Shown here piece by piece: positions 16,833 to 35,593 of a stretch of DNA of 35,593 bases; position 1 is the stretch's first letter; every line of letters starts with the position of its first letter. The stretch is taken from positions 1 through 35,593 of the forward strand of contig JALZUP010000256.1 of the NCBI GenBank assembly GCA_023301505.1. Reading direction: 5' to 3'. The notes under the pieces were generated by a model that had not been told where the DNA came from, ran no database searches, and was given only the letters and a program-made list of their open reading frames with translations. This DNA is from Robiginitomaculum sp. (GTDB lineage: Bacteria; Pseudomonadota; Alphaproteobacteria; Caulobacterales; Maricaulaceae). A program made the position numbers and the translations under genes.

Positions 16833-17318
16833 ATGAAAAAAATAAGACTAGCATTCGTATTCAAAGGAAGTCCAGCTGCACCTGCGAGAACAGGCACCTA
16901 TCACGAAGTATGGAGCGACCACTACGAGCACCCGAACGTAAGCGGTGAACCAATCTCGATAAACGTACTGACAGAAACTAATAAAAACGCTTTAAATGAC
17001 TTCCTGAAAAAAGCAAATATAAAAAGTTATCCATCTATCGTATTTCTAGATGAGACAGATGGACAACAACGAATTATTACGACGATAGCAGGACGTGAAG
17101 ATGATTACGATTTTTTAACAAAAAAATACTTGTCGATACTTAATAATAATTTAGAAGGCAATGGAGCTGGCGGTTTATTTGATGATCTGTTTGAAGAAAA
17201 CACTACAGCTAGTGCAAAAGGACTTTTCGGGAACGGGTTGAGAAAATCTGCAGACTTTTCGTGGTTAATCGTTGGATTGCTGCTAGTAGCGCTTTTATGG
17301 TTTTTATTTAAAAAATAA
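16833..17318 (+). CDS. Membrane-anchored thioredoxin-fold protein, 161 aa
   Basis: Residues about 40-104 have the second half of a thioredoxin fold: a helix (NALNDFLKKANI), then KSYPSIVFLDETDGQ with the typical cis-Pro position (P67), then a final strand and helix. No CXXC is present, so redox activity is unlikely. After a Gly-rich linker, residues 144-159 form a C-terminal membrane helix (WLIVGLLLVALLWFLF) ending in KK. Nine bases separate it from the M15-like gene, suggesting an operon. The fold call is moderate; the tail anchor is clear. Confidence 0.7.
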   Translation: MKKIRLAFVFKGSPAAPARTGTYHEVWSDHYEHPNVSGEPISINVLTETNKNALNDFLKKANIKSYPSIVFLDETDGQQRIITTIAGREDDYDFLTKKYLSILNNNLEGNGAGGLFDDLFEENTTASAKGLFGNGLRKSADFSWLIVGLLLVALLWFLFKK

Positions 17319-17327
17319 GCAATAACA

Positions 17328-18257
17328 ATGGCTATAATAAGAAACAATAATACCCTAGTCGGCAGAGGCTTATTTCAAGCTAGTGATTTCTATTACAAAG
17401 GTAGGCAATCGCCTCCTATAGCGCATAATATACCCGATGGTGTTATCGCTGCCTTCGAATTCATAAACGATCTATTTGCTCCTCGATACGGTTTAGATGC
17501 GAAACCGTACTTTACGAGCACCTTGCGATTACCAAGCGATTCTAATTACGAAACTAAAAACGGTAGGCTCTCTACACATAGTCAAGAATTAGCAGCGGAT
17601 GGCAATTGGTCCAATGGACTCAGTAGCCCTACGCAGCATATCGAAGATGAGATAATTCTGATTATCGGACATGATATTTCTGTCAAAGGTTTTATTTATG
17701 ACGAGTTGCGCCAGTTAGGCGTTAATGGGATCGGCACGTATTATCGAGATGGCGGGTCTAATACTTTTCTGCATTTAGATGGTCGGCAGAAATTTACGTA
17801 CTTCAAGCAACTACGATACGAGCATCGGAAAAAAGCAGCGGCCCTGCATCGTAGCTTTATGGCGGAGCTGTCAGCATTGACTGTGGCACCTATGCCTATT
17901 ATTCCTACAGCGCCTACGAGTACGCCTATACCTGTAACGAGAGTCGATCCTGTGTCTAAGGAGGTAATCATCGTGGCGCGGATAGATACACTTACGGGCG
18001 CGCCTATCGCTGCTTCTACGGCTACACCTATTATCGAGCCTTCTTTTATAGAGTCAGTGGTGGCTTCGACTAAAGATGCGGGGAATGATGTGTTACTTGC
18101 TTTTACGGAGACGGATGGCGGGGAAGATCCTATTGCGACTGCTGTTCAGTCACAAAGACGAAACTTGAAATATGTGGTGATTGGATTGGTGGCGGTGGGC
18201 TTGTTTTTTGGCTTGTCTAGGCTGATCGTTAGTGCTGGGTTGTTGCCTGATAAATAG
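17328..18257 (+). CDS. Peptidase M15-like cell-wall hydrolase with C-terminal anchor, 309 aa
   Basis: The metal-binding pattern of M15-type peptidoglycan peptidases is visible. The first part is RLSTHSQELAADGN (H84, D91), corresponding to SxHxxGxAxD. The second is GIGTYYRDGGSNTFLHLDGR (H149, D151), corresponding to the GxGxY...xHxDxR end. The glycine of the first motif is replaced, so activity needs checking. A Pro/Thr-rich stalk (about 185-240) follows, then a C-terminal membrane helix (about 280-300). The likely role is cutting peptide bonds of peptidoglycan during particle entry, exit or DNA transfer (inference). A strong terminator follows. Confidence 0.72.
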   Translation: MAIIRNNNTLVGRGLFQASDFYYKGRQSPPIAHNIPDGVIAAFEFINDLFAPRYGLDAKPYFTSTLRLPSDSNYETKNGRLSTHSQELAADGNWSNGLSSPTQHIEDEIILIIGHDISVKGFIYDELRQLGVNGIGTYYRDGGSNTFLHLDGRQKFTYFKQLRYEHRKKAAALHRSFMAELSALTVAPMPIIPTAPTSTPIPVTRVDPVSKEVIIVARIDTLTGAPIAASTATPIIEPSFIESVVASTKDAGNDVLLAFTETDGGEDPIATAVQSQRRNLKYVVIGLVAVGLFFGLSRLIVSAGLLPDK

Positions 18258-18298
18258 TCGATTTTAATCAGTTGTAGTTTTTTTTTGGATCAAACTAT

Positions 18299-18330
18299 AA
18301 AAGCCTATGCCATTTTTGGCATAGGCTTTT
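18299..18330. terminator. Strong bidirectional terminator
   Basis: AAAAGCCTATGCC pairs perfectly with GGCATAGGCTTTT around ATTTTT. It separates the + strand M15-like gene from the converging - strand cluster. Confidence 0.92.
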
Positions 18331-18337
18331 TGCAGAG

Positions 18338-18406
18338 GTATGTGGAATATCTTATGTACAAAATTGAGCAGCAAAATACCTGTTTAGTGTTTTGCTGCCC
18401 TGTCAC
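18338..18406 (-). repeat. Structured 3' element, right copy
   Basis: Read on the - strand: GTGACAGG, then hairpin GCAGCAAAA...TTTTGCTGC, then CAATTTTG, then TACATAAGATATTCCACATA and one more shared base. It starts 3 bases after the stop of the 113-aa gene. It is the inverted partner of 3856-3925. Confidence 0.78.
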
Positions 18407-18409
18407 TGA

Positions 18410-18751
18410 TTAATATTGAGAATCTTTCCATTTCAAAAATTCGGTATTAATGCTATCCTTGATTCTTGTAGCCCATTCGTCGTCCAGTATTACAATGTAA
18501 GATAAACCATCACAATCAATACCCTCCTCTTCAAAAACCTTTAATTTTGCTTCGTGCTGTGCATCCGCTTCTGGTGTACTAGATTGGTCTTCTACGTCCC
18601 AACACTTTCCACCAAACCTTTCTTCAATATCCCACGTGATTCTTCCTTTTATGTCTTTGATTTCTACCTTTTGGCCTACTTGATTGCTTTTGTTCCATTC
18701 AGCTAAATGAATACTGTTGCCGTCTTGTTCTACGATTTCAAATAATTGCAT
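18410..18751 (-). CDS. Hypothetical acidic protein, 113 aa
   Basis: Not recognised. A soluble, acidic protein with no signal peptide or membrane helix. It contains IKGRITWDIEERFGGKCWDV and a C-terminal DDEWATRIKDSINTEFLKW. It is the last gene of the - strand cluster started by the promoter near 19857, and its stop is followed by the structured 3' element. Confidence 0.65.
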   Translation of the reverse strand: MQLFEIVEQDGNSIHLAEWNKSNQVGQKVEIKDIKGRITWDIEERFGGKCWDVEDQSSTPEADAQHEAKLKVFEEEGIDCDGLSYIVILDDEWATRIKDSINTEFLKWKDSQY

Positions 18752-18821
18752 AACTTTTTTTTAATTTTAAATGATTAATAAAATTCCGTTAGCCCGTTTA
18801 GGCTTGGTGCAATTAAGTGTA

Positions 18822-18995
18822 TTAGGCTTTAATCTCCGCTACCACCTTCCGAATCTTCTCTGCCAGTACTTCAGCTTTTTGTTTTGACATAAGAGCGCTC
18901 AACCCTTCAACGCCCACAAACGCATAATACTCACCCGTCGGTTCTCCTCCTTCATCTTTAGCCTCTGTTACTCTTACCTCCGAGTACCAATCCAT
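18822..18995 (-). CDS. Small hypothetical protein, 57 aa
   Basis: An intact frame starting MDWYSEVRVTEAKDEGGEPT and ending in an amphipathic helix (SKQKAEVLAEKIRKVVAEIK). It has a strand-turn-strand then helix layout, no odd codons and sensible spacing (31 bases after its upstream neighbour, 70 before the next). Function unknown; probably co-transcribed with the ribbon-helix-helix gene. Confidence 0.65.
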   Translation of the reverse strand: MDWYSEVRVTEAKDEGGEPTGEYYAFVGVEGLSALMSKQKAEVLAEKIRKVVAEIKA

Positions 18996-19026
18996 GAATC
19001 CTTTTCTTGAATTTTACATATTTACC

Positions 19027-19311
19027 TTATTCGAATTTTTCTGTTTCAAAATTGAAATTATTTACATGCCCTTTGCCGCATTCTACTTCGCTTACTCCCT
19101 CACCTATTGAAATGTCAGAAGCATCAAACATAGGCTCTTTACAGGTAGGGCAACAAACAAAAAGTAGTGAGGGATTCATTGAAGTTTTAAAAATCAAATC
19201 TTCAATCAGTACATTTAGCGATTTCTTATTTAGTTTCTTCGCTAGTTCCTGCCCTCGTTCTTTTAATTTAGGGCTAATTCGCATATATATTCTTGCTGAT
19301 TTATTCGGCAT
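19027..19311 (-). CDS. Ribbon-helix-helix regulator with zinc-ribbon-like C-terminus, 94 aa
   Basis: Residues 5-42 (SARIYMRISPKLKERGQELA, then KKLNKKSLNVLIEDLIF) match the beta-helix-helix layout of Arc/MetJ-type DNA-binding proteins. Residues 53-82 carry CCPTC and CGKGH, a possible zinc site. Such proteins bind short palindromes as paired dimers, and the two TGTACGTACA sites at the head of this cluster are the obvious targets, which would mean autoregulation (inference). Confidence 0.78.
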   Translation of the reverse strand: MPNKSARIYMRISPKLKERGQELAKKLNKKSLNVLIEDLIFKTSMNPSLLFVCCPTCKEPMFDASDISIGEGVSEVECGKGHVNNFNFETEKFE

Positions 19312-19342
19312 AATTATTTATCTTTGTTCTATCGTAAAAAGT

Positions 19343-19385
19343 AAGCCCCTACTTGGTTAGATTCAGTAACCTTGTAGGGGCTTTT
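19343..19385. terminator. Hairpin terminator within the - strand cluster
   Basis: AAGCCCCTAC pairs with GTAGGGGCTT, with a second inner stem GGTTA/TAACC. T-runs occur on both sides. It lies between the 139-aa gene and the ribbon-helix-helix gene and may attenuate read-through. Confidence 0.82.
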
Positions 19386-19388
19386 TGA

Positions 19389-19808
19389 TTATGCTTCAAT
19401 ACTTTGCTTAGATGTCATAAATACTTGTTCAGCAGCTTCTTTGTATTCGTCAAAATCAGAATAACCTAGTTTGATAAATTTATTAGCGTTCGGATAATTA
19501 TTTGCTAATACAAAAGTGACACCTTCTTTTAAGAAATCATAACAAGTTACTTCACCTCCATCTTCATCAAAATCCTCATAACTTAAATAAGCGTTAATGC
19601 ATATTTCAACCCAATCATTTTTACTCCCCTTGTTTGAATCTTCATCAACTTCATAATTTCCTTCTATCCATGTAGCTATTGATGCACATGTGTCATCGGA
19701 AGGGCTAGTCTTGTCAATGCCCCAACTGTTTATTGCATAATTCTCTGGGTACAATTTAAAATTTTCGGTTACAGAATGTTCGATTGATTGTTTTTTAAAA
19801 GGATTCAT
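19389..19808 (-). CDS. Hypothetical acidic protein, 139 aa
   Basis: First gene of the - strand cluster. A soluble acidic protein rich in Asp/Glu/Tyr, with DDTCASIATWIEGNYEVDED, then INAYLSYEDFDEDGGE, then a helical C-terminus (DEYKEAAEQVFM). Not recognised. Its promoter carries the twin palindromes, so it is probably tightly regulated. Confidence 0.65.
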   Translation of the reverse strand: MNPFKKQSIEHSVTENFKLYPENYAINSWGIDKTSPSDDTCASIATWIEGNYEVDEDSNKGSKNDWVEICINAYLSYEDFDEDGGEVTCYDFLKEGVTFVLANNYPNANKFIKLGYSDFDEYKEAAEQVFMTSKQSIEA

Positions 19809-19856
19809 CGTAAAAAGTTTTAAAAATTATTAAATATTGTTTCTTACTTACGATTA

Positions 19857-19901
19857 CAAATGTACGTACAAATAAGAGTTATTCCAAATTTTGTACGTAC
19901 A
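19857..19901 (-). promoter_or_regulatory. Promoter with twin TGTACGTACA operators
   Basis: Read on the - strand, a -33 TTTG (19885-19888) and a -7 TACATTTG (19857-19864) are 20 bases apart, matching the Bacteroidota consensus TTTG/TAnnTTTG. Two identical palindromes TGTACGTACA lie at 19861-19870 and 19892-19901, 31 bases apart (three helical turns). One covers the -7 box and the other lies just upstream of -33. A bound regulator would block the promoter. Confidence 0.82.
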
Positions 19902-19929
19902 TTTTATTAAACTTTAACATTTGACATTA

Positions 19930-19955
19930 AAAAAGCCTCGATAAACGAAGCTTTT
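19930..19955. terminator. Bidirectional hairpin upstream of the - strand promoter
   Basis: AAAAGC-TCG pairs with CGA-GCTTTT around ATAAA with one mismatched position. It probably insulates the regulated promoter from read-through. Confidence 0.6.
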
Positions 19956-20067
19956 CTGTCACACTATATAAGAGCAAATTTGTACACAAGTTACTTTATC
20001 ACATAACTCTTTCTTTTCTAAAACATATAATAGGGACGCATCCTAGGCGCTCCCAGAGCATAAAAAA

Positions 20068-20325
20068 TTAATTTCTCTTAAACCCATTTTGTTCCAGCCA
20101 AGATATTCCTACAGGAGTTCCTAGCCATTGAATTGTAGAAATTACAATTCTATCTTCCCAACCAGTTGCACCAATTGTATTTTCCGGCAAAATAGCTTGT
20201 GATATTATATCACCAAATTCATCTACAAAAGAATCATGCAATTGCTTTTCAATAGGATTTTCATTGTGTCGATGTGTATTAAAACCTTTTTTTTTATTTA
20301 TCCATAATAAGAACTGATTTTGACG
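20068..20325 (-). pseudogene. Remnant of a coding frame without a start
   Basis: An uninterrupted 85-codon frame reads ...FLLWINKKKGFNTHRHNENP..., PIEKQLHDSFVDEFGDIISQ..., GWEDRIVISTIQWLGTPVGI and ends SWLEQNGFKRN. Its amino-acid makeup is that of a real protein, but it has no ATG or GTG, and an in-frame TAG stands immediately upstream, next to a palindromic element. A TTG within it could start a 57-aa product. I read it as the surviving 3' end of a broken gene; family unknown. Confidence 0.6.
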
Positions 20326-20329
20326 CTAT

Positions 20330-20357
20330 TCATCGGATGGCTAGCGCCGTCCGATGA
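20330..20357. repeat. Intergenic copy of the 29-bp palindrome
   Basis: TCATCGGATGGC-4 nt-GCCGTCCGATGA. The arms match the in-frame copies of the polyvalent genes, but the loop is one base shorter. It abuts the decayed frame at 20068-20325. Confidence 0.85.
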
Positions 20358-20430
20358 AGCTATCTTAGTTTTAAAATCATAAATAATTATTAATACCCTA
20401 TTCAAATATAGTAATATTTTCTTAATATCA

Positions 20431-20460
20431 TTGCAAGATTCGTGAATTTAATTACTTTTG
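20431..20460 (+). promoter_or_regulatory. Bacteroidota-type promoter
   Basis: A -33 TTG (20431-20433) and -7 TACTTTTG (20453-20460) are 19 bases apart. Transcription would start near 20467, leaving a leader of about 250 bases before the ATG at 20720. Confidence 0.7.
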
Positions 20461-20466
20461 TAGCAG

Positions 20467-20719
20467 TTCTTTGATATTTGGGATATTTTATCAATTTTGG
20501 ATTAGATTAGGTATTTGGATATATGAAAGTTGTGTTGCATCTTTGTAGGGACAACTTTCTGTATGTTTATATTTTAATAATATTCTTTTCCAATTTGAAG
20601 GACTAAGACCTAGCCGTCCTATTTGCTGTTTCATATTTAAATTGGATTGTTAAAGTTCATGCGGATACGTTGTCAGGCAGCACTTAGGCGGCTTTTTATT
20701 TACCTATTAAAATTCGATC
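20467..20719 (+). promoter_or_regulatory. Long structured leader upstream of the 144-aa gene
   Basis: The leader has no gene but contains a hairpin GAAAGTTGT...ACAACTTTC (about 20526-20560) and a GC-rich stretch ending GGCGGCTTTTTATT (near 20690). A regulatory leader or small RNA is possible. I cannot match it to a known riboswitch. Confidence 0.4.
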
Positions 20720-21154
20720 ATGACAACGATCCGTAGGACTGCAAGAGACTTGCAACAATCAGAAGGCTATGCCCTATTAAGAGAAAGCTTCTTTCAAAAG
20801 AATGAGGCAATTATTACCGCTATTACTGAACACGTTGAATTGCTCCTAGAAAAAATCTATGACGATTCAAAAACTATGTTACTCGAAGAACAAGCACGTT
20901 ACGAACTACCGATCCCCTTAATGACTTGGATGGATAAGCAACTGACTGTTTTCTCTTTTATTGAAACAATCAGCCCTAAGCCTTATCGCCAGATGGAATT
21001 ACTGTACGAATTGATCTGTGTTTCTCCTGTAGGTCAATTACCCCCTTTCGGTCACTTATCTCCTCTCACTATGATTGCTATTGCTCAAAATTATGCGCTT
21101 GCGTATAGCCTAGTTTTCGAGCAGGTTATGGAAGACCTAGACCGAATTCAATAA
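20720..21154 (+). CDS. Small helical protein, 144 aa
   Basis: An all-helical soluble protein of unknown function, probably a distant paralogue of the protein at 5364. It shares the KNEAIITAITEHVELLLEKI-type first helix, the RQMELLYELI segment, a proline-rich turn (PPFGHLSPL) and a closing aromatic helix (NYALAYSLVFEQVM). It has its own promoter and long leader. Confidence 0.65.
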   Translation: MTTIRRTARDLQQSEGYALLRESFFQKNEAIITAITEHVELLLEKIYDDSKTMLLEEQARYELPIPLMTWMDKQLTVFSFIETISPKPYRQMELLYELICVSPVGQLPPFGHLSPLTMIAIAQNYALAYSLVFEQVMEDLDRIQ

Positions 21155-21246
21155 TCGAATATTTTAGTATTTTTTTTTTTAATAGTCTCTACCAAACTTT
21201 GTTGACTCTTTTTTTATCTTTTTTTTTACACTAAATCAAAGTCAAC

Positions 21247-21651
21247 ATGTACACAAAACCTTTATCTTTTTTATTTATTTTTAGTTTATTATTTACTTCT
21301 TGCGCTAAGGAGTCTTTATCTGATGAGGCGATCACTAACCAAAAAGTGGAAGGCACCTGGAATGTTTATAGTTTCGATGTAGATAACTCGGAATTGATGC
21401 TTGGACTTGATTTTTCTAAGGTTCGCTTTACGAATAAAGGTGATGATGAGGGGAGCTTTCAATTTTGGGGCGAAGGCTCTAATGGCGATAGTTTTAATCG
21501 AACGAATGATTATACTATTGTCGGAAATGCGGATAAGTTTATTTTAAATAATAATGACGTTTTCTTGTTGCGCTTTCCTAGCGAAAAGGAGATTTACATT
21601 GGTAGCGAGGATGGGAGTACGCTTATTAAGGCGGTGTTCGAAAGCCGATAA
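21247..21651 (+). CDS. Secreted lipoprotein, lipocalin-like, 134 aa
   Basis: Residues 1-18 are a lipoprotein signal with lipobox FTSC, so Cys19 should be lipidated. The mature part begins with acidic residues (AKESLSDE), as in Bacteroidota surface lipoproteins. It contains VEGTWNVYSFDVDN and repeated strands (DYTIVGNADKFILNNNDVFLL), typical of the small beta-barrel lipocalin-like lipoproteins of this phylum. It may be a host accessory gene or an exclusion factor; the context does not decide. A degenerate A repeat follows the stop. Confidence 0.75.
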   Translation: MYTKPLSFLFIFSLLFTSCAKESLSDEAITNQKVEGTWNVYSFDVDNSELMLGLDFSKVRFTNKGDDEGSFQFWGEGSNGDSFNRTNDYTIVGNADKFILNNNDVFLLRFPSEKEIYIGSEDGSTLIKAVFESR

Positions 21652-21653
21652 GT

Positions 21654-22050
21654 TCCCACGACTGCGTCATGGGTTGTAGGATGTTGTCCCTTCAGGACTT
21701 TTATGACGTAGACAGGAAGCCCCTTACTTTTGTGAGGGGCTTTTTTTTGTCCCATGAAATGTAAGTCAGTATAAACATTTTATATTTTTGACTTGAAGCG
21801 TGGTGGATGTATGATGTATGAATTCTGATTTATGATTTCTGATTTTTTTAGATGGTGCTGATCCTTTTGATCCTAGCTTTTGCTTTTGTTTCTTACCCCC
21901 AACCCCCAAGGGGGAGCGTGCAGCGCTTTCTTTTAAGTCGCTGCTTTTCTTTTTGATTCGATCTTTTTCTTTGGTAGCTCTCTTTTTAGCTGATCTTTTA
22001 TCCTGTGATAATCCTTTTTTGATCTGATCTCCCCCTTGGGGGTTGGGGGT
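21654..22050. repeat. Gene-free stretch with degenerate A, half B and inverted C repeats
   Basis: It contains a degraded A repeat (21654-21710), a strong terminator AAGCCCCTTAC...GTGAGGGGCTT with T-run (21717-21748), one arm of a B repeat (21803-21850), and a pair of C repeats in inverted orientation (21895-21917 and 22029-22050). I see no gene. Confidence 0.65.
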
Positions 22051-22066
22051 TGTTTATCCCGTGCGG

Positions 22067-22176
22067 TAAATCATACCTCATACCTCATACCTCATACCTC
22101 ATACCTCATATATCCATTCTGTTTTGAGCCATACAGATACAGTAGATATGAATTCAGACCTATGAGGTATGATTTT
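22067..22176. repeat. B repeat after the lysozyme gene
   Basis: Five tandem CATACCT heptamers form the left arm, and the right arm ends ACCTATGAGGTATGATT. It lies immediately 3' of the - strand lysozyme gene. The heptamer number differs from other B copies. Confidence 0.72.
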
Positions 22177-23046
22177 TCAAAGCAATCCACTACCCTTAAT
22201 CAAAACCTTAAACCCAAAAAACAAGACTAAAGCAATCCCACCTATCAACACCAATTTTACTGCTCGAAAAGAGCGGGCATTAGACATTAAAGGCGTATAA
22301 GCAATTACGCCCTGGTGCAAGGTGTAAGTTACGTCATCCAGTATAGCGTTTGCTTGTTGCGATATAGTAGTCTTCGTGTTGCTATTAAAAGAGGGCATAG
22401 CAACTGCCGCCAGTACGCCACCGCTTTCCATATCTGCCATTAAATTAAAATCTGGGAAATGATCTAGCCGATTTCTCCATCCATTCAGGTAGATACTTTG
22501 ACCAGGATCTTTCTCTACTATCTTGTCATAGAAGTTCCACCGGTATCTTTTGTAATAATTATGCAGGAGTGAGGGATCTGCTCTATTGATCGCATTTAGA
22601 GTTCTAGTACCTATGCGGCCGTCTTCCTGTAATTGTTCCCCCATCAAATTAAGGGTCATTTGTAGCATCTTGGTGGCTCTGGAGACACCATGGTTGATGG
22701 CGGCATCAAAATATATATTGGCTACTGGTTGACTATTGATATAGTCGCCTTTGATTCGTTTCCAATAATCAACTTCATATATATCTAGTACTGTTTGAGT
22801 AGTGAGCGATAGACTATCGCTTGGCGTTGGTATCCTTTTTAAGTGTTTGGCAAGTGCGGGAGCGCTGATCCCTTTATTGGTGCCTACTAGTAGCGGGGCT
22901 TCGTTGTTGGTGCAATAATAATTATTACTATTCCCTTTGACCCATGCTTGGTTTGTGCAGACCCAATTGCCTCTGTCTTGGGCTTTGTCGGTGTATCCTC
23001 CTTCTGCTGTTAGTACTTTTTGGGCTGCTTGGTTGTAGGATGCCAT
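22177..23046 (-). CDS. GH108-type lysozyme with C-terminal membrane anchor, 289 aa
   Basis: Residues 1-185 match the phage-type N-acetylmuramidase of family GH108 with its peptidoglycan-binding region. The catalytic glutamate lies in TAEGGYTDKAQDRGNW (E15). The segment NIYFDAAINHGVSRATKMLQ (about 110-129) follows, then DGRIGTRTLNAINRAD (about 142-157) and YKRYRWNFYDKIV. After a linker, residues about 264-281 are a membrane helix near the C-terminus, which is not usual for the family. It should cut the glycan strands of peptidoglycan at the membrane surface. An A repeat lies 14 bases before the start. Confidence 0.88.
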   Translation of the reverse strand: MASYNQAAQKVLTAEGGYTDKAQDRGNWVCTNQAWVKGNSNNYYCTNNEAPLLVGTNKGISAPALAKHLKRIPTPSDSLSLTTQTVLDIYEVDYWKRIKGDYINSQPVANIYFDAAINHGVSRATKMLQMTLNLMGEQLQEDGRIGTRTLNAINRADPSLLHNYYKRYRWNFYDKIVEKDPGQSIYLNGWRNRLDHFPDFNLMADMESGGVLAAVAMPSFNSNTKTTISQQANAILDDVTYTLHQGVIAYTPLMSNARSFRAVKLVLIGGIALVLFFGFKVLIKGSGLL

Positions 23047-23060
23047 GGTTTATTTTTTTT

Positions 23061-23150
23061 CCACGACTTCGTCATGGGCTACAAGGTGTCGTCCCGTTGG
23101 GACTGTTCGTGCTATTCGTGCTATTCGTGCTATTCGTGCTATTCGTATTT
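23061..23150 (-). repeat. A repeat upstream of the lysozyme gene
   Basis: Stem-loops GTCCC-AAC-GGGAC and CCCATGACGAAGTCGTGG are in the leader of the lysozyme gene, preceded by tandem ATTCGTGCT-type 9-mers (about 23105-23145). The 9-mers are a slippage-prone tract. Confidence 0.75.
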
Positions 23151-23163
23151 CCCTAAAGCAGAA

Positions 23164-23353
23164 AGTAGCAATCCTAAAAAATAGGAATGCTACTTGTTCT
23201 GATTCTATTACAAGGGGATTTCTTTTTGGAACAAAAAAATAACAACATCAGATGAAAAACACCTGACGTTGTTAGTAACATATTATTAATTAACTTTAAT
23301 CCTACTTGGTATCCTCTAGTAAATAAAAACGCCAAACACTCGAAAGTGCTTGA
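23164..23353. terminator. Gene-free stretch with three hairpins
   Basis: Hairpins AGTAGCAATCCTA...TAGGAATGCTACT (23164-23194), AACAAC-TCAG...CTGA-GTTGTT (about 23240-23273) and CAAACACT...AGTGCTTG (about 23333-23353, with flanking A/T runs). At least the last looks like a terminator for the - strand gene ending at 23400. No real gene is seen here. Confidence 0.6.
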
Positions 23354-23399
23354 CATTTTTTCTACACACTATGAGAACACCCGTTATATTTTAAGTCTA

Positions 23400-23654
23400 T
23401 CACAAGGGGATAGGCGCTCCAAAAGGAAGTCGCTTTACAGTCATTTTTACCATTTCTGGTTGACGAGAAGCAACAATTTCTTCATGCATCATTGCCTCTT
23501 TGACAGGCGTTCTAGCGACTGTTGGCATTTCTTCGGGCAATTGCTGATTAGGAGCTATATTGCTTCTACTTTTGAACCAAATTGTAGCGCCTATCATTAG
23601 TAAGATTGCCGAAATACTTAATAATATAGTATCCTTCTTTGATAGTTTTTTCAT
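23400..23654 (-). CDS. N-terminally anchored small protein, 84 aa
   Basis: Residues 9-27 (ILLSISAILLMIGATIWF) form a membrane helix after a basic start (MKKLSKKD). The rest is a Pro/Glu/Met-rich extramembrane segment ending RLPFGAPIPL. Not recognised. One base separates its start from the stop of the helix-hairpin-helix gene, so the two are co-translated. Confidence 0.65.
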   Translation of the reverse strand: MKKLSKKDTILLSISAILLMIGATIWFKSRSNIAPNQQLPEEMPTVARTPVKEAMMHEEIVASRQPEMVKMTVKRLPFGAPIPL

Positions 23655-23655
23655 G

Positions 23656-24525
23656 CTATTTTTTCACTAATTTCTTTGCCGCTTTGATCCAGTCAGTCAC
23701 CACAGCTCTTCTTATGCTATTCGTAAATAAAATATTATTAATTCTATCTACTGTTGCAGTCGACAATTGCTTGTAGTTCTTAATGCCATTAGCGGATAAT
23801 GCAGCTTCTATTTTTGCCCCAATACCTTTTATTCTGGATAAATCTTCCTCTTCTGCTTCTGGTGTCCCTTCGCCTTCTGCTTCTGGTGTCCCTTCGCCTT
23901 CTGCTTCTGGCGTTCCTTCGCCTTCTGCTTCTGGTGTTCCTTCGCCTTCTGCTTCTGGCGTTCCTTCGCCTTCTGCTTCTGGCGTTCCTTCGCCTTCTGT
24001 TTCTGGTGTTCCTTCACCTTCTGTTTCTGGTGTTCCTTCGCCTTCTGCTTCTGGCGTTCCTTCACCTTCTGCTTCTGGCGTTCCTTCGCCTTCTGCCTCT
24101 GGTGTTCCTTCGCCTTCTGCTTCTGGCGTTCCTTCGCCTTCTGCTTCTGGCGTTCCTTCGCCTTCTGCTTCTGGCGTTCCTTCGCCTTCTGTTTCTGGTG
24201 TTCCTGTTACAACTCCATTAAGGCCATCCAGCAACGCCTTTACCCTTGTGATCTCCTCTACCAATGGTTTTCTTTGAGTCGTAATTATTACTTGCAGCTC
24301 ATTTTCAGACGCCTGTGCAGCTACAGCTAAATTTTGATTAGCCTTAAGATTCCTTTGAATTTGTCCTAAGCTATCTAACTTTTCTGTTAATTTAGCTTTG
24401 GCATTCGCCTTGTTTGTCTCAAGATCAGCCTCTAGATTCGCCAAATAATTCTCTACATCTTTAATTTCTAATTCTCCACCTTCTACTTTTTCTTTAGAAA
24501 AAGCACTTTTAAATATATTAGCCAT
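23656..24525 (-). CDS. Helix-hairpin-helix protein with GTPEAEGE repeats, 289 aa
   Basis: Residues about 1-105 form a coiled coil ([20 protein letters not shown] and following). Residues about 108-228 are fifteen copies of an 8-residue acidic repeat GTPEAEGE or GTPETEGE. Residues about 230-285 ([20 protein letters not shown], then [12 protein letters not shown], then [13 protein letters not shown]) are a helix-hairpin-helix domain like those that bind DNA in polymerase- and nuclease-associated proteins. The likely use is non-specific DNA binding with a long acidic spacer. The repeat number is probably variable. Confidence 0.8.
23847..24206 (-). repeat. 24-bp minisatellite inside the helix-hairpin-helix gene
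   Basis: About fifteen tandem 24-bp units encode GTPE(A/T)EGE. Units with ACA or GCA at the variable codon form blocks (one T, six A, two T, six A), suggesting expansion by slippage or recombination. Confidence 0.93.
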
Positions 24526-24625
24526 AAGTATTTTTTGATAATTTAAATTATTTTTATGAAATATGCAATATTTTTTGTATTATTGCAATGTTAGCTTACT
24601 CTTGCTTTAAGAGTATTCCTTGTAC

Positions 24626-24663
24626 AAAAGATCAGCTCCCTTCCTTCCTTGAGCTGATCTTTT
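24626..24663. terminator. Strong bidirectional terminator
   Basis: AAAAGATCAGCTC pairs perfectly with GAGCTGATCTTTT, flanked by T-runs. It ends the 156-aa gene on the - strand and insulates the helix-hairpin-helix gene. Confidence 0.9.
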
Positions 24664-24680
24664 TTTTGTCTGATTTTTCA

Positions 24681-25151
24681 TTATTCCTTTTTAAATAATC
24701 CTGTGATTACTGTTTTATTTTTTGCGGCTATGCTTAGCCCATAAATTAATACTAGACCTACAACCACCCAAGGTAATATTTTGAAGACAATCGTGGCTGT
24801 ATCATCTATTCCGTCTGCGGCTTTCCCTATTGTACCGAAGACGGTTCCCCTTATTTTTGTACTTAGTTTGATACTGTCCCGAGCTACCTCGCTCACCAGA
24901 TTACTAGTAACACTGATCCCTTCTCGATTAAAATAATCAACAAAACTGACATCGTAGGCGCAGCTATCTGATTTATCCCATAACCAGGTATCGTTTTGTG
25001 GGTCAAACCATGCTGATTTCCATCTCCGCTGAGCATCGCCTCTGCCATATTGGTTTTTGAGTGCTTCGTACCATTCGATCCAATCATTGCAGGACCAATA
25101 TTTATCCCATCCCCAGTCATCGTAGTCTGGAGACGAATTGTAGTCTATCAT
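24681..25151 (-). CDS. Trp-rich protein with C-terminal anchor, 156 aa
   Basis: Residues about 10-80 are unusually rich in Trp, Tyr and Asp (DDWGWDKYWSCNDWIEWYEA, then KNQYGRGDAQRRWKSAWFD, then CAYDVSFVDYFNREG), with two cysteines (C21, C64) that could pair. A helical region follows, then a membrane helix (about 121-142) and a KKE tail. The motif order C-DWI-W--LK-YG---A...W...C--D--FV-YF is reminiscent of uncharacterised proteins I associate with tailless-virus or metagenome contigs, but I cannot name a family. Confidence 0.68.
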   Translation of the reverse strand: MIDYNSSPDYDDWGWDKYWSCNDWIEWYEALKNQYGRGDAQRRWKSAWFDPQNDTWLWDKSDSCAYDVSFVDYFNREGISVTSNLVSEVARDSIKLSTKIRGTVFGTIGKAADGIDDTATIVFKILPWVVVGLVLIYGLSIAAKNKTVITGLFKKE

Positions 25152-25170
25152 TTTTATCTCTTTTTTTTAG

Positions 25171-25255
25171 CAAATCATAAATCTTACATCATATATCATA
25201 CTTCATAAATCCAACAGATATATGATGTATTATTTCTGATGTAGAAGACATGATT
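25171..25255. repeat. B repeat after the 79-aa gene
   Basis: Left arm AAATCATAAATC with TTACATCATATATC; right arm GATATATGATGTATTATT. Imperfect; it lies between the 79-aa gene's stop and the 156-aa gene. Confidence 0.65.
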
Positions 25256-25274
25256 TCACTAGTTATTTCCTAGA

Positions 25275-25514
25275 CTACCGTTTATGATGTCGATGCCGAT
25301 GTCGACGCCTCACCCGACCGCCTACTTCTCCGTTTTTATAATAAGGGATGTAGTTGTTGACTACGTAATAACTTGGTTCTTCGTCCGCTTTTAGTTGGGC
25401 TACTTTTAACTCCTCTACTGCTTGGTCTTGTTGGCCGTCTTTGGCGAACATTTTCCAAAGCATAAATCCTAGTAGGGCTATTATTAATAGCATTAGGGTT
25501 TCTGTACTTTTCAT
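25275..25514 (-). CDS. N-terminally anchored Arg/His-rich protein, 79 aa
   Basis: Residues 5-22 (ETLMLLIIALLGFMLWKMFA) form a membrane helix. The end is a cluster of Arg and His (VRRRHRHRHHKR). A basic tail on a membrane protein could contact nucleic acid or bind metal; both are guesses. Two tandem A repeats lie upstream, the nearer 15 bases from the start. Confidence 0.65.
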   Translation of the reverse strand: MKSTETLMLLIIALLGFMLWKMFAKDGQQDQAVEELKVAQLKADEEPSYYVVNNYIPYYKNGEVGGRVRRRHRHRHHKR

Positions 25515-25529
25515 GATTTATTTATTAAT

Positions 25530-25687
25530 CCCATGACTGCGTCATGGGCTACAGGGTGTCGGGGCGTTGCCCCTGTTCGTGTTAGATGCTATGCTATGTT
25601 TATTTTATTTATTAATTCCATGACTGCGTCATGGGCTACAAGGTGTCGGGGCGTTGCCCCTGTTCGTGTTAGATGCTATGCTATGTT
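25530..25687 (-). repeat. Tandem pair of A repeats
   Basis: Two nearly identical copies (25530-25600 and 25618-25687), both with GGGGC-AAC-GCCCC and the perfect CCCATGAC-GCA-GTCATGG hairpins. The distal copy overlaps the 3' end of the matrixin-like gene. Confidence 0.88.
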
Positions 25688-26398
25688 TTTGACTATGTTT
25701 GTTTTACTTGCTAGGAAATAGACTATGCCTAGGATGCCTAGTATGATGAATTGGCTTCCTCCAGCGATTTTTGGCGTTGCTTTGGGACTCATTCCTGCTT
25801 CTACTTCTAGTATTTTTCGCTCTTCTGCCCATTTTTTCTTGTAAACCATAGCTCTTATATTTCCATAGAGGAAATCTACCGCTTCTACTTCATAAGGACT
25901 TAGGGCAGAATCTACTCCATTATAACTCGCATACATTAGCGCTTCGTTACTCTCACTATGGCCTATATTGAAGCTATGGCCTAACTCATGTACGAAGGCT
26001 GTAAATAGATCCGCAGTTCTGCCTGTCGTTCGCTCTCCTTTCATGATCTCTTGCCAGTCAAAATCATCATTTAGCCACACGTCTCCTAGTGCATAAGCGA
26101 ATCCTAATACGTTTTCCCCGAAAGGGCGCGGCGGTGGATTAGATCGATCACTATCACTTGAAAAATGGATAACAATATGAGCCTCTTTGATGTCGTTTGT
26201 CCCTTCGAACATGATGGGATTGAATATTCTTTCCCATAGATCGAAGCCTTTTTTGATGGCTTGTATTGTTTTTGTCTTATCTTGATCGCTGGTAAAGTTT
26301 CTAATGTGCCAACGAATTTTTCCTTGAGGAGACGGCAATATTATTTGCCTGCCTGTCATGGTGTTGACCTTTACGCCATTGTGTGTGTATGTTCCCAT
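25676..26398 (-). CDS. Matrixin-like zinc metalloprotease with C-terminal anchor, 240 aa
   Basis: The metzincin zinc motif HELGHSFNIGH (137-147) and the Met-turn ALMYASY (about 153-159) followed by LSPYEVEAVDFLYG are those of the M10 (matrixin) family. The upstream IVIHFSSD and DVWLNDD strands also fit. There is no signal peptide or inhibitory prodomain. Residues about 215-233 form a C-terminal membrane helix. It would degrade protein at a membrane, perhaps surface-layer or virion proteins (inference). It starts 2 bases after the rhodanese stop, so the two form an operon. Confidence 0.9.
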   Translation of the reverse strand: MGTYTHNGVKVNTMTGRQIILPSPQGKIRWHIRNFTSDQDKTKTIQAIKKGFDLWERIFNPIMFEGTNDIKEAHIVIHFSSDSDRSNPPPRPFGENVLGFAYALGDVWLNDDFDWQEIMKGERTTGRTADLFTAFVHELGHSFNIGHSESNEALMYASYNGVDSALSPYEVEAVDFLYGNIRAMVYKKKWAEERKILEVEAGMSPKATPKIAGGSQFIILGILGIVYFLASKTNIVKNIA

Positions 26399-26400
26399 AT

Positions 26401-26742
26401 TTAGTTTTCCATTAAGCTAGGAATTGTTTCTCTTTTATATTTGTATCGCCATCTATATATGCCTCCGTTAAGGACTTGTACATCTTTGAAATGCCTGGCG
26501 GTTAGTATACTCGCTGCTTGTTTGGCAGCTCTATTGCCTGGTGCTTTGCACATGACAATGATTGGTTTGTTTTTATAGGCTGCTAGTAGCCTTATACTTG
26601 CTACTATTGTCCCTACTGGTAGGTGGTAGCCGCCTACGTTTCGTTTGTTTCTGTCTTGGTAGTCTCTTACATCTAATAATAAGAAGTCGACTCCTTTGTC
26701 TATGTATTTTTTCTTTAGGTGTGCGGGTTCTATTCTTCTCAT
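26401..26742 (-). CDS. Single-domain rhodanese, 113 aa
   Basis: A rhodanese-fold sulfurtransferase: FLLLDVRDYQDRNKRNVGGY (about 20-39), catalytic loop CKAPGNR (C65-R71) and VQVLNGGIYRW at the end (about 88-98). The cysteine would carry sulfur as a persulfide. It has no membrane helix, which is rare in this gene block. It could receive sulfur from the desulfurase at the left end (inference). An A repeat lies 12 bases before its start. Confidence 0.9.
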   Translation of the reverse strand: MRRIEPAHLKKKYIDKGVDFLLLDVRDYQDRNKRNVGGYHLPVGTIVASIRLLAAYKNKPIIVMCKAPGNRAAKQAASILTARHFKDVQVLNGGIYRWRYKYKRETIPSLMEN

Positions 26743-26754
26743 GTTTTTTATTTT

Positions 26755-26822
26755 CCCACGACTGCGTCATGGGCTGTGAGGGTGTCGTCCCGTTGGAACT
26801 GTTCTTGCTGGACGTTTTGGGC
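26755..26822 (-). repeat. A repeat upstream of the rhodanese-protease operon
   Basis: Contains the CCCATGACGCAGTCGTGGG hairpin and a GTTCC-AAC-GGGAC stem with one changed pair. It is followed upstream by a B repeat. Confidence 0.75.
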
Positions 26823-26824
26823 GT

Positions 26825-26907
26825 AAATCATACATCATACATTTTAAATCATATATCTACTTGGTTTGAGCCGTGATGAATCTATGATGTATAATGTATA
26901 ATTTCTA
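26825..26907. repeat. B repeat after the 173-aa gene
   Basis: AAATCATACATCATACATTTTAAATCATA on the left (broken by slippage variants) pairs with TATGATGTATAATGTATAATTT on the right. It sits just 3' of the - strand gene ending at 26920. Confidence 0.68.
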
Positions 26908-26919
26908 CAAAAACAAGCC

Positions 26920-27441
26920 TTAACTATAGTGTCGATATCTTCTCAAGTTACTACTAGCTGCATCCCCTGCTGGCAAAGGAATTGGTTCACATAATCTTTC
27001 TCCTCTTCGGATATGCCAGTAATCCAAGCCTTGATTACTTAGTACCCACGCCTTTAAATCGCTTTGATATAGTTTTGCAGCGCCCGCATTAGGAAATAAA
27101 TCTATAGCTTTAAAAAAACCTGCTACTCTATTCCCGTAATCCTCTTCGATGCCTATATACATTTCTCCGAATCGCTTTACATCCCCGTGCGGGATACCAC
27201 TACCGCCACGCTCTGCGGCAATCTCTTCTGTCCTCGTCCACCTAGTAGGGAATTTTATTCTATCGGGATGTATACAAGCACCTACAGGTGCAGGTATTTC
27301 ATTTCCGCCCGTATCTGGATCAGCGGTCACTACACCGCTTTCTAGATTCGAATTTCTACGAAAAAAAGCATAGGCGGCCCCTGCTATCAATAATGGAATC
27401 ATGATCCATTTCAGAATATTCTTATTCGCTTTTGCTGCCAT
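26920..27441 (-). CDS. N-terminally anchored protein, 173 aa
   Basis: Residues about 9-26 (ILKWIMIPLLIAGAAYAF) form a membrane helix after a Lys-rich start. A linker is followed by a globular domain from about 55: HPDRIKFPTRWTRTEEIAAE, then GSGIPHGDVKRFGEMYIGIE, then AVLSNQGL-type WVLSNQGLDYWHIRRGERLC. Two cysteines (one near 53, one near 150) may pair. Not recognised. Its start overlaps the end of the 87-aa gene. Confidence 0.65.
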   Translation of the reverse strand: MAAKANKNILKWIMIPLLIAGAAYAFFRRNSNLESGVVTADPDTGGNEIPAPVGACIHPDRIKFPTRWTRTEEIAAERGGSGIPHGDVKRFGEMYIGIEEDYGNRVAGFFKAIDLFPNAGAAKLYQSDLKAWVLSNQGLDYWHIRRGERLCEPIPLPAGDAASSNLRRYRHYS

Positions 27442-27685
27442 TTGATGATATGATTACAGCGACGATGATCGCCGCTAGGATTGCTATAATGATTAGGTTT
27501 CTATTGCCAAGCTCCTCTTTATAAGAGGATAAATAGTCTTGATATTCTGGTCCTTCCTCTAATAATCTTTGTTGTCGGATTATCTTTTGATTCTGCCTCC
27601 CTTGCACAATACCGCCGATCGCATTGAATAAGCTCCCTACGCCATTCGCTATCGCTGATACTGGATCCGCTCCTGATGCTTCCAT
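27422..27685 (-). CDS. Small tail-anchored protein, 87 aa
   Basis: A hydrophobic, Gly/Ala-rich first part (DPVSAIANGVGSLFNAIGGI), a charged middle (RQNQKIIRQQRLLEEGPEYQ) and a C-terminal membrane helix (63-80, NLIIIAILAAIIVAVIIS). Unknown family; the layout resembles small virion membrane proteins. It lies 5 bases after the Cys-rich gene and overlaps the 173-aa gene by 20 bases. Confidence 0.68.
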   Translation of the reverse strand: MEASGADPVSAIANGVGSLFNAIGGIVQGRQNQKIIRQQRLLEEGPEYQDYLSSYKEELGNRNLIIIAILAAIIVAVIISSNGSKSE

Positions 27686-27690
27686 GTTGC

Positions 27691-28107
27691 TTATTTGAGG
27701 GCAAATCCTACTACTGCCAATGCAGCCACAAGGAGTACGCCAATGATGATATTATTTTCTTGCTTTGATCTTCTTTCTGTTGTGGCATTCGCTTCGTTTA
27801 GAAGCTGAATCTTTGGGTCATCTATTAATGGCCGAAATCCACATACTGTGGCGCCATTGTAGGCGTTATATATAAATGCGGGGTCGTAGTTGGCGCATAG
27901 CCACTCTTCGCCCGTTAATTGCCCTTCTAGGTCTTGGTTACATTCTTTCACGCAGGCATCATGCAAGCCTAGACTAATGCCTTGTAGATCTCCGCAACCG
28001 CACGAACATTTTCTTATTCGTTCGCAAGTTTTTCTTCTTCCTTTATTGAATGGATGATTTATGGTACATCTTGATCCACAGTCGTATTTTGCGCCGGCTA
28101 CTTCCAT
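27691..28107 (-). CDS. Cys-rich tail-anchored protein, 138 aa
   Basis: Ten cysteines lie in residues 10-89, including CERIRKCSCGCG, which could form disulfides or a metal site. Residues about 119-137 form the C-terminal membrane helix (NIIIGVLLVAALAVVGFAL). There is no signal peptide, so the cysteine domain would face outward only if the protein is inserted post-translationally. First gene of a three-gene operon headed by an A repeat. Confidence 0.68.
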   Translation of the reverse strand: MEVAGAKYDCGSRCTINHPFNKGRRKTCERIRKCSCGCGDLQGISLGLHDACVKECNQDLEGQLTGEEWLCANYDPAFIYNAYNGATVCGFRPLIDDPKIQLLNEANATTERRSKQENNIIIGVLLVAALAVVGFALK

Positions 28108-28127
28108 TTTATTTTTTTATACGAAAT

Positions 28128-28725
28128 CCCATTACTGCGTCATGGGCTACAAGGTATCGTCCCATTGGGACTGTTCGTGTTGTTCGTGAAATCATACATC
28201 TTACATCATACATCATACATCATATATCATATATCATATATCATATATCTGTGTGGTTTGTGCTATGCGGATATATGATATATGATGTATGAATTCTGAT
28301 TTATGATTTTCATTCCATTCCCACGACTGCGTCATGGGCTACAAGGTGTTTTGGCTAATGCTCTTTGTGCTTCTAAGCACAAGCCATCCCAGCACGTTGG
28401 GACTGTTCGTGTTGTTCGTGAAATCATACATCTTATATCTTACATCATCAATCATATATCTATGTGGTTTGTGCCATGCGGATATATGATGTATGATGTA
28501 TGAATTCTGATTTATGATTTTCATTCCATCCCCACGACTGCGTCATGGGCTACAAGGTGTTTTTGGCTAATGCTCTTTGTGCTTCTAAGCACAAGCCATC
28601 CCAGCACGTTGGGACTGTTCGTGTTGTTCATGAAATCATACATCATACATCTTACATCATCAATCATATATCTATGTGATTTGCGCCATACGGATCTATG
28701 ATCTATAAATTCTGATTTATGATTT
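28128..28725 (-). repeat. Array of three compound A+B repeats
   Basis: Three A copies (28128-28187, 28321-28420, 28531-28632) alternate with three B copies (28189-28311, 28420-28520, 28632-28725). The two distal A copies carry an identical extra hairpin segment containing TTGTGCTTCTAAGCACAA. This 600-base stretch has no gene. The last B copy contains the stop codon of the 71-aa gene. Confidence 0.85.
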
Positions 28726-28932
28726 ATTCTTGAGTATCCACACTACCAATGCCACAAGCGCAATCACTGCACCCGCCAAAAAAGCACTATTCTTTTTCGT
28801 AATAAAAAGTGTGGTGCCTGGTACTTGTATCTGACTACTTAAGTCAGGAACTACATCGAGACATCGTTCCTCTGTGAATAACCAATACTGGCCTTCTTTA
28901 CAACGCTTATCGTATGTGTATAAGTTGAGCAT
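28717..28932 (-). CDS. Small tail-anchored protein, 71 aa
   Basis: Residues 1-30 hold a short cysteine pair motif, DKRCKEGQYWLFTEERCLDV (C11, C24). Residues about 49-67 form the C-terminal membrane helix and the end is KNKS. Not recognised. Its start overlaps the stop of the upstream 46-aa gene (TAATG), so translation is coupled. Confidence 0.68.
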   Translation of the reverse strand: MLNLYTYDKRCKEGQYWLFTEERCLDVVPDLSSQIQVPGTTLFITKKNSAFLAGAVIALVALVVWILKNKS

Positions 28933-29072
28933 TATTTACTGAATTTTACAAGACCTTGATCCCATAGAAAAAATACTACTGCGGCAATACCTGTCGCAAT
29001 AGTAAAAAGCATAATACCATGTGCTTGTTTGCAGCGATTACAGCTACATCCTTTTTTTGATGGATGATCCAT
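28932..29072 (-). CDS. Small membrane protein with CxCxxC, 46 aa
   Basis: Starts MDHPSKKGCSCNRCKQAHGI and continues with a membrane helix (MLFTIATGIAAVVFFLW) and a short tail DQGLVKFSK. The CSCNRC cluster is a plausible metal or disulfide site. TAATG overlap with the next gene and a 1-base gap from the previous gene support it as real despite its size. Confidence 0.72.
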   Translation of the reverse strand: MDHPSKKGCSCNRCKQAHGIMLFTIATGIAAVVFFLWDQGLVKFSK

Positions 29073-29073
29073 A

Positions 29074-29448
29074 TTATTTTTTCTTCTTTAACACTACTAA
29101 TAAAATTAAGCCCACTACGCCCCCTATGATCCAAATGATTTTATTGTCTTTGGGTGGTGGAGCAAGAGGTGCTTGCTGTACTGGATAGCCTTGTGGCGGA
29201 AAGTTGTTTCTTTGGTTCTTAAAAACTCCATCCACTATATTAGGTAAAACCTTTACTAGTCCATCACCTAGATTTCTCCAGAATTTCCCTTTCTGTGGAT
29301 CGACACCTGTATTAGCTATGCCTGATCCATCATATCCACTAGTGCTGCCTGTTATACCACCAGTACCAAAAGTACCGCTACCTACTCCAGTACCAAATTG
29401 ATAGTTTGGATTAGCATAAGGCGATACATATTCTGTAGTAAAATCCAT
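29074..29448 (-). CDS. Gly/Pro-rich tail-anchored protein, 124 aa
   Basis: A low-complexity Gly/Ser/Thr/Asn-rich N-terminal half (FGTGVGSGTFGTGGITGSTS), an amphipathic middle (GKFWRNLGDGLVKVLPNIVD), a Pro/Gln-rich linker, then a C-terminal helix (104-120) and KKKK tail. Unknown family. First gene of the three-gene run 29448-28717. Confidence 0.68.
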   Translation of the reverse strand: MDFTTEYVSPYANPNYQFGTGVGSGTFGTGGITGSTSGYDGSGIANTGVDPQKGKFWRNLGDGLVKVLPNIVDGVFKNQRNNFPPQGYPVQQAPLAPPPKDNKIIWIIGGVVGLILLVVLKKKK

Positions 29449-29529: not shown

Positions 29530-29787
29530 CTATTCAGGTATGACTTTTTCTGCATCCTTAATGTTTATATACCTTGTTGTCCGAGAGCCAAAAAGTCCAG
29601 CCAAAAAAGTACTACTACTCGCTAAGAAGTATTTAACTATAGGAGACATCTCGGGCACTAATGTTGGCAAATCAGTCAGAAATGCTGATGTTCCTGACAA
29701 AACAGTAACAACTAATAAATAAGCAATTGGCTTAGTTAGCTTTAACTTATCAAGTAACTCTGCTATTCTTTGATTCAAAGTATTCAT
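29530..29787 (-). CDS. Two-helix membrane protein, holin-like, 85 aa
   Basis: A short amphipathic N-terminus (NQRIAELLDKLKLTKP), two membrane helices (about 19-38 and 48-66) and a charged tail (SRTTRYINIKDAEKVIPE). Size and topology fit a class II holin, which would release the lysozyme or peptidases, but sequence alone does not prove this. Only a 53-base gap separates it from the integrase. Confidence 0.6.
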   Translation of the reverse strand: MNTLNQRIAELLDKLKLTKPIAYLLVVTVLSGTSAFLTDLPTLVPEMSPIVKYFLASSSTFLAGLFGSRTTRYINIKDAEKVIPE

Positions 29788-35311: not shown

Positions 35312-35593
35312 TTTTCTTTAAGTATGGGCGTTGAAAAAAGAGGAACACAGGGACGCAGAGGCACAGACAAATTAATGCCCTGTGACTATACGCCTCTATG
35401 TTCTAATTACCTAGTGATTGAAGTCATAAGTCCTTGACAATTAAAATGGACTCTTTTTGAGTAATACTTCGTTGTTCGTCGATCAGGTAGCTATGCAGGC
35501 TGGCCGAGAATGCGCTAACGTAACCACCAAATTTATTTGGTAGGTTGTACACAAATTGATTGTCAATATATTACATAGAACCAGCCAAATAAA
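35312..35593. other. Right-end gap with two palindromic motifs
   Basis: Contains CACAGGG...CCCTGTG (35346-35384) around a GACGCAGAGGCACAGAC tract that resembles a widespread intergenic repeat, and the palindrome CCAAAT-TT-ATTTGG (35527-35540) near the window end. Both outermost genes read away from the window ends, so if the molecule is circular this region plus 1-176 would be a divergent control region or origin. No gene seen. Confidence 0.45.

Follow-up and report, generated by a model that had tools for sequence, protein, structure and literature searches.

Why should a muramidase, a metalloprotease and several small proteins of unrelated type all end in the same kind of membrane anchor? 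The question is raised by contig JALZUP010000256.1 (C256), whose entire length of 35,593 bp is the window analysed here, and which is one of the 474 contigs of a metagenome-assembled genome (MAG) deposited as Robiginitomaculum sp. (GCA_023301505.1). A first-pass annotation, made from the sequence of the window, had described unrelated domains with a common C-terminal anchor at positions 16833 to 29448, and had proposed that they share a destination membrane in a membrane-bearing virus, a vesicle-type gene-transfer particle or an unknown transfer machine. Our analysis gives an even chance that the window belongs to a large integrase-bearing element of Bacteroidota (~96 kb if the contig chain described below is right), which would be a temperate tailless membrane-containing virus or a phage-plasmid.

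A set of tail-anchored proteins

Anchors were called by a Kyte-Doolittle hydropathy scan. Nine proteins of unrelated type encoded at 16833-29448 each have one hydrophobic helix at the C-terminal end, followed by a tail of 1-17 residues, and most of these tails contain Lys or Arg. As had been noted at first reading, none of the nine has an N-terminal stretch resembling a signal peptide. The anchored and neighbouring genes are as follows (TM, transmembrane helix, in residues).

16833-17318, forward strand: tail-anchored protein of 161 residues, weakly thioredoxin-like (Thioredoxin_2, E 0.02); TM 141-159, tail KK (2 residues)
17328-18257, forward strand: tail-anchored protein of 309 residues with an M15-like motif only; TM 283-301, tail of 8 residues
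22177-23046, reverse strand: tail-anchored GH108 muramidase with PG_binding_3 domain, 289 residues (PF05838, 8e-17; PF09374, 5e-14; PHROG endolysin, 5e-36); TM 265-283, tail of 6 residues
24681-25151, reverse strand: tail-anchored Trp-rich protein of 156 residues, no family match; TM 121-139, basic tail of 17 residues
25275-25514, reverse strand: N-anchored small protein of 79 residues with an Arg/His-rich tail; TM 6-24
25676-26398, reverse strand: tail-anchored matrixin metalloprotease of 240 residues (PF00413, 1e-18); TM 211-229, tail of 11 residues
26401-26742, reverse strand: rhodanese-like protein without anchor (PF00581, 4e-8)
26920-27441, reverse strand: N-anchored protein of 173 residues; TM 9-27; layout like FLiP g11 and phi12a:1 g9, no sequence match
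27422-27685, reverse strand: tail-anchored small protein of 87 residues; TM 63-81, tail of 6 residues
27691-28107, reverse strand: tail-anchored Cys-rich protein of 138 residues; TM 119-137, tail of 1 residue
28717-28932, reverse strand: tail-anchored small protein of 71 residues; TM 49-67, tail of 4 residues
29074-29448, reverse strand: tail-anchored Gly-rich protein of 124 residues, layout like FLiP structural gp9; TM 102-120, tail KKKK
29530-29787, reverse strand: small membrane protein, holin-like in appearance only, no family match

Tail-anchored proteins account for 9 of the 17 genes in 16833-29448 and 9 of the 35 in the window, compared with 2 of 262 proteins in comparison loci taken from Alphaproteobacteria, Escherichia coli K-12 and tailed phages (Fisher p = 7.5e-8 for 9/35 versus 2/262). 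They were rare among the tailed-phage controls, and one of the two comparison hits, E. coli sxy, is doubtful. Shuffling of residues predicts 1.07 tail-anchored proteins in the window, versus the nine observed. The claim of a common C-terminal anchor on unrelated domains is thus borne out by nine proteins and by their enrichment.

The proposed identities fared unevenly. Pfam supports the matrixin and the muramidase, the latter with both its catalytic and its peptidoglycan-binding domain. The thioredoxin fold is weak, as the AlphaFold2 (AF2) model, predicted from the single sequence, has a pLDDT of 52 and no significant fold match. The M15 peptidase assignment was not upheld: a SxHxxxxAxD...HxD-like motif can be made out by eye, but neither Pfam nor the PF08291 (Peptidase M15_3) hidden Markov model, the latter searched up to E 10, matched the protein, and its single-sequence fold was of low confidence. 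The proteins at 25275-25514 and 26920-27441 are anchored at their N-terminal end and not at the C-terminal one. We found no homologues of the anchored proteins apart from generic lysozyme domains. The GH108 protein retrieved only generic lysozyme matches from 200 genomes of the MAG's order, which is expected because the window is misbinned (see below).

A shared leader hairpin and linked contigs

A hairpin of the form CCCATGACGCAGTCGTGGG, perfect or near-perfect, precedes nine genes, distributed over three contigs, at a distance of 12-26 nucleotides (nt) from the start codon. In the window, it precedes the genes of a 2611-residue polyvalent protein, the GH108 muramidase, the 79-residue N-anchored protein, the rhodanese and the Cys-rich anchored protein. 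On C105 it precedes three genes, including the gene just before that of a 247-residue protein discussed below and one encoding a small TM protein, and on C178 it precedes one gene; it is absent from C102, C38 and C255. The copies in the window are the following.

8610-8628, forward strand: CCCATGACGCAGTCGTGGA, 15 nt upstream of the start codon of the 2611-residue protein
23060-23078, reverse strand: before the GH108 gene (fold -8.9 kcal/mol, z -5.2)
25530-25548, reverse strand: before 25275-25514
26755-26773, reverse strand: before the rhodanese gene (fold -11.8 kcal/mol, z -4.7)
28128-28146, reverse strand: before the Cys-rich tail-anchored gene

Folding energies of the leader hairpins range from -9 to -12 kcal/mol (z about -4.4 to -5.2). 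Hairpins of this form hardly ever arise in shuffled 60-mers. Among the 474 contigs of the MAG, the hairpin repeat CGACTKCGTCATGGGCTRCAAGG is confined to C256, C105 and C178, and a second repeat to C105 and C256. The window also has two protein families in common with C105 and C178, one of 139-144 residues (48% identity) and a secreted 'TKIGQLAPC' family. The common leader hairpin ties the anchored genes and a gene block of C105 into one element or regulon.

Comparison of contig ends places these contigs in a row. The last 53 bp of the window (35541-35593) overlap exactly with the end of C178 and its first 29 bp (1-29) with one end of C102, while the other end of C102 and the start of C105 have an 18-bp palindrome in common. 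The resulting order, C178 - C256 (reversed) - C102 - C105, spans ~96 kb. This single four-contig chain is probable but not proven, because two of the joins fall within inverted repeats and the remaining one consists of a palindrome. C102 is placed by its end overlaps alone, since it lacks the leader hairpin. At the C256/C178 and C256/C102 joins, imperfect inverted repeats surround the 53-bp and 29-bp centres, and these repeats probably broke the assembly. The same bin contains C38 (L093), a contig of 4,128 bp with a 79-bp terminal repeat, corresponding to a circular plasmid of ~4.05 kb with a rolling-circle Rep_1 protein (5e-13); it has ~155 bp in common with the start of C105, at 78% identity.

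Origin of the window

The G+C content of the window is 38.6%, versus 49-50% in two other contigs of the same MAG, with which its tetranucleotide correlation is 0.37-0.44. Judged from the proteins of these two contigs, the remaining MAG is alphaproteobacterial in appearance. On the basis of this deviation in composition we reject an alphaproteobacterial origin, and C256 is very probably misbinned. Its source was probably a Bacteroidota bacterium, as suggested by the type of integrase, A-rich leaders without Shine-Dalgarno sites, secreted SprB/TSP3-type proteins on the linked contigs and the phage relatives. Another contig of the bin, C257 (L026), carries phage-like genes (helicase- and polymerase-like open reading frames, recognized by eye) and has a G+C content of 41.6%. 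Its composition sets it apart from the MAG as well as from the window, and several mobile elements are thus apparently present in the bin.

Replication genes and capsid and ATPase candidates on C105

C105 (45.9 kb) encodes DnaB (2e-104), a UvrD-like helicase, a weak O-like replication protein, a tyrosine recombinase, DUF5131, a cytosine methylase and a GH24 phage lysozyme with a signal peptide. Its replication initiator matches, in the phage collection, only the Cellulophaga single-stranded DNA (ssDNA) phages phi12:2, phi12a:1, phi18:4 and phi48:1 (25-26% identity, E 5e-10).

The same contig contains a compact block encoding a 255-residue P-loop protein, a TM protein, proteins of 120 and 247 residues, a tail-anchored protein of 156 residues and more small TM proteins. 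The P-loop protein, with its Walker A (GDKRQGKT) and Walker B (LLLFDE) motifs, is a candidate packaging ATPase (C105:32304-33071), and the 247-residue protein (C105:34492-35235) is a candidate capsid protein. Across 398 genomes of the phylum, the candidate ATPase retrieved only itself.

Searches of most proteins of the four contigs (~96 kb; a few small proteins were left unscanned) with Pfam and PHROGs yielded no terminase, portal, HK97 capsid or tail protein, and no relaxase, coupling protein or VirB4. A standard conjugation or tailed-phage module just outside the window had been named at first reading as an observation that would count against the proposal; none was recognized in these searches. 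Rfam gave no match. Searches of the genome contig collection found no relatives of the element, and the viral contig collection, queried with six proteins, one alignment and the repeat pattern, gave none beyond domains of the giant 2611-residue protein, which also occur there on contigs carrying tailed-phage-like genes. One G+C-rich (65%) contig of that collection was taken as a chance match.

Comparison with membrane-containing phages

Several phages with a membrane, or close relatives of such phages, encode proteins of the same design, some of them lytic, which strengthens the proposal of a common membrane; when the same scan was applied to these small genomes, some of its hits were spurious open reading frames. 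In PM2 (Corticoviridae; in the Vinavirales, together with Jorvik), the small proteins P3, P8 and gp j likewise have a C-terminal helix and a tail of 3-5 residues. The PM2 gene order ATPase P9, P7, capsid P2, P3, P4, P8 resembles the C105 block in layout only, C105 reading ATPase - TM - 120 residues - 247 residues - TM and PM2 ATPase - TM - capsid - TM - TM. In contrast, the PM2 genome is 10 kb in size and lacks polyvalent proteins, and the ATPase and capsid candidates have no detectable sequence match to it. FLiP (Finnlakeviridae) likewise has a Bacteroidota host and has an internal membrane. Its g7 and structural g9 are tail-anchored in the scan, and the C-terminal part of its lytic g14 contains, as judged by eye, a hydrophobic stretch that stays under the scan threshold. 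The Gly-rich protein at 29074-29448 aligns with FLiP g9 at a phmmer E of 0.033, mostly across the anchor. FLiP differs in its 9.2-kb ssDNA genome, the lack of a packaging ATPase and a dissimilar capsid protein.

In phi12a:1 (candidatus Obscuriviridae), g5 is tail-anchored and the glucosaminidase g8 has a helix followed by a basic tail of 32 residues; its relative phi18:4 is reported to have an internal lipid membrane (PMC11946311). Only the Rep of these two phages is similar to the element by sequence (25%). They differ from it in their 6.5-kb ssDNA genomes, and the small ssDNA genome and shared structural genes of that group are not seen here. The transglycosylase P7 of PRD1 is tail-anchored by the same scan, and for the membrane phage Jorvik a pair of lytic enzymes is reported, Slt and M15, each of which was detected in a phage-enriched sample (PMC10589892). 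In view of these parallels, the earlier statement that the system would be unlike described ones was too strong, as its arrangement resembles that of corticovirus- and FLiP-like phages.

Judged against the features of Bamfordvirae, the candidate ATPase has Walker A and B motifs and a fitting gene position, without significant alignment to PM2 or PRD1 P9. Membrane proteins are represented by the nine tail-anchored genes of the window and more TM genes on C105; their presence in a virion would follow from the model below. We do not claim membership in the double-jelly-roll class, whose small genomes are not matched here.

A further likeness concerns the giant protein. The Vibrio/Thalassomonas podoviruses BA3 and FGH, with genomes of 36-37 kb, have a giant methyltransferase-containing protein (~2,600 residues in FGH), encoded within the structural gene block, to which residues 1-706 of the window protein are 36% identical (best E 7e-109). 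These are tailed phages, with no other common feature noticed. By analogy, the 2611-residue protein may be delivered together with the DNA, in line with the position of its podovirus homologue.

Proposed mechanism and alternative explanations

The best-supported reading, to which we give about even odds, is that the element works like a double-jelly-roll membrane virus. In tail-anchored proteins generally, the domain ends up facing the cytoplasm. After their synthesis in the cytoplasm, the proteins of this set would enter the host inner membrane through the C-terminal helix, with the domain remaining on the cytoplasmic side. A patch of this membrane would then become the lining of the virion, with the domains on its outer face, beneath the capsid. 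The wall would be cut during entry by the GH108 muramidase, perhaps helped by the M15-like protein and the matrixin, so that the membrane can pass; the giant polyvalent protein would arrive together with the DNA and shield it. What the data show is the anchored set with its enrichment, the enzyme domains, the link to C105 and C178 and the common leader hairpin; the virion, its lining and the role in entry are our inference. Such an origin of the lining would explain why a single type of anchor, and no signal peptide, is found on a lysozyme, a protease and other domains, whereas enzymes facing the host cytoplasm are hard to explain by a cellular purpose.

Several observations weigh against this membrane-virus reading. 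A capsid protein has not been demonstrated: the 247-residue protein is only a candidate and matches nothing in PM2, PRD1, the phage and plasmid collections or PDB sequences. The C105 ATPase has no sequence match to PM2 or PRD1 P9, to any phage or plasmid or in PDB sequences, and hhalign comparison of both candidates with PM2 and PRD1 gave no match. The chain depends on short overlaps (53, 29 and 18 bp), one palindromic and two flanked by inverted repeats. Genes for secreted adhesin-like proteins, a cysteine desulfurase and a di-haem peroxidase are more plasmid-like than viral. Finally, prokaryotic double-jelly-roll viruses had genomes of 7-18 kb in a 2018 survey (PMC5894146); the window alone measures 35.6 kb, and ~96 kb for the chain would be exceptional. 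The proposal of a common destination membrane gains from the phage replication genes and the candidate ATPase/membrane-protein block of the linked contigs, and the first-pass interpretation is partly supported.

The metabolic and adhesin genes that these contigs also carry, the small plasmid C38 in the same bin and the lack of a demonstrated capsid would also suit a large Bacteroidota plasmid or chromid that acquired a membrane-virus gene block, decayed or satellite-like, and whose anchored proteins are remnants or used by the cell. We regard this as unlikely, though worth serious attention, as the anchored genes are intact and have the leader hairpin in common with the C105 block, and a lysozyme and a matrixin facing the cytoplasm are hard to explain in a cell without a virion. 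The polyvalent and ParB-like proteins have tailed-phage relatives, and the element may be incomplete, so that a tailed phage, prophage or conjugative element could have its standard module on an unrecovered contig. This seems improbable given that the families found in ~96 kb include none for a terminase, portal, HK97 capsid or tail and none for a relaxase or VirB4/T4CP, and that tail-anchored proteins were rare in the tailed-phage controls. A non-viral gene-transfer particle or membrane-vesicle transfer machine would accommodate tail-anchored enzymes and polyvalent proteins in a window without a recognizable capsid; it is more doubtful still, since the linked contigs have their own DnaB, Rep and phage-type lysozyme, as in a self-replicating element. 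Least credible of all is that the anchored genes are unconnected neighbours by chance: they do lie on two strands and in several separate gene blocks, but this explanation has to contend with their enrichment and the common leader hairpin.

Returning to the membrane-virus reading, it is tempting, although this goes further and is correspondingly more tentative, to suggest a new lineage of tailless membrane-containing Bacteroidota viruses with genomes near 100 kb, several times the size of those known from prokaryotic double-jelly-roll viruses, a battery of enzymes in the virion membrane and co-delivered polyvalent proteins. If true, a relative of ~96 kb would break the size limit described for prokaryotic double-jelly-roll viruses, and would illustrate how a virion with a membrane can be equipped with a set of enzymes for entry. 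Our data also suggest that an excess of short-tailed anchored proteins may flag such viruses when their capsid is unrecognizable by sequence.

Other genes and repeats in the window

The remaining annotated genes include those of the integrase and of the polyvalent proteins.

4348-5109, forward strand: ParB-like phage protein (phrog_12305, 1.5e-27; 28% identity across its full length to a protein of Flavobacterium phage lillamy)
5875-6153, forward strand: very basic protein (32% Lys + Arg), candidate DNA-condensing protein
6503-8479, forward strand: polyvalent protein with ddrB-ParB domain (PF18763, 8.5e-19)
8644-16479, forward strand: 2611-residue polyvalent protein with methyltransferase and LPD1 domains (PF18796, 7e-16; PF05175, 2e-8)
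29841-30869, reverse strand: tyrosine recombinase (integrase; PF00589, 4e-12)

The two polyvalent proteins share a C-terminal Lys-rich domain of 69 residues that is 84% identical (8215-8479 and 16215-16479) and is preceded by linkers of the S-S-D-x-x-x-x-S-D-E type; this domain could be a common packaging or targeting tag. Positions 8233, 10854, 11766, 16233 and ~20330 of the window and ~7095 of C178 carry a palindromic repeat of the form TCATCGGAYGGC...GCCRTCCGATGA. It is found within the linker-coding parts of the polyvalent protein genes as well as in intergenic DNA, and resembles a small mobile palindrome. The cysteine desulfurase (IscS/NifS type) at 177-1418 has an extra N-terminal membrane helix. 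A protein at 23656-24525 combines ~15 copies of the 8-residue repeat GTPEAEGE with a helix-hairpin-helix end, and a secreted protein with 54-nt collagen-like repeats (32537-34027) belongs to the 'TKIGQLAPC' family, which also has members on C105 and C178.

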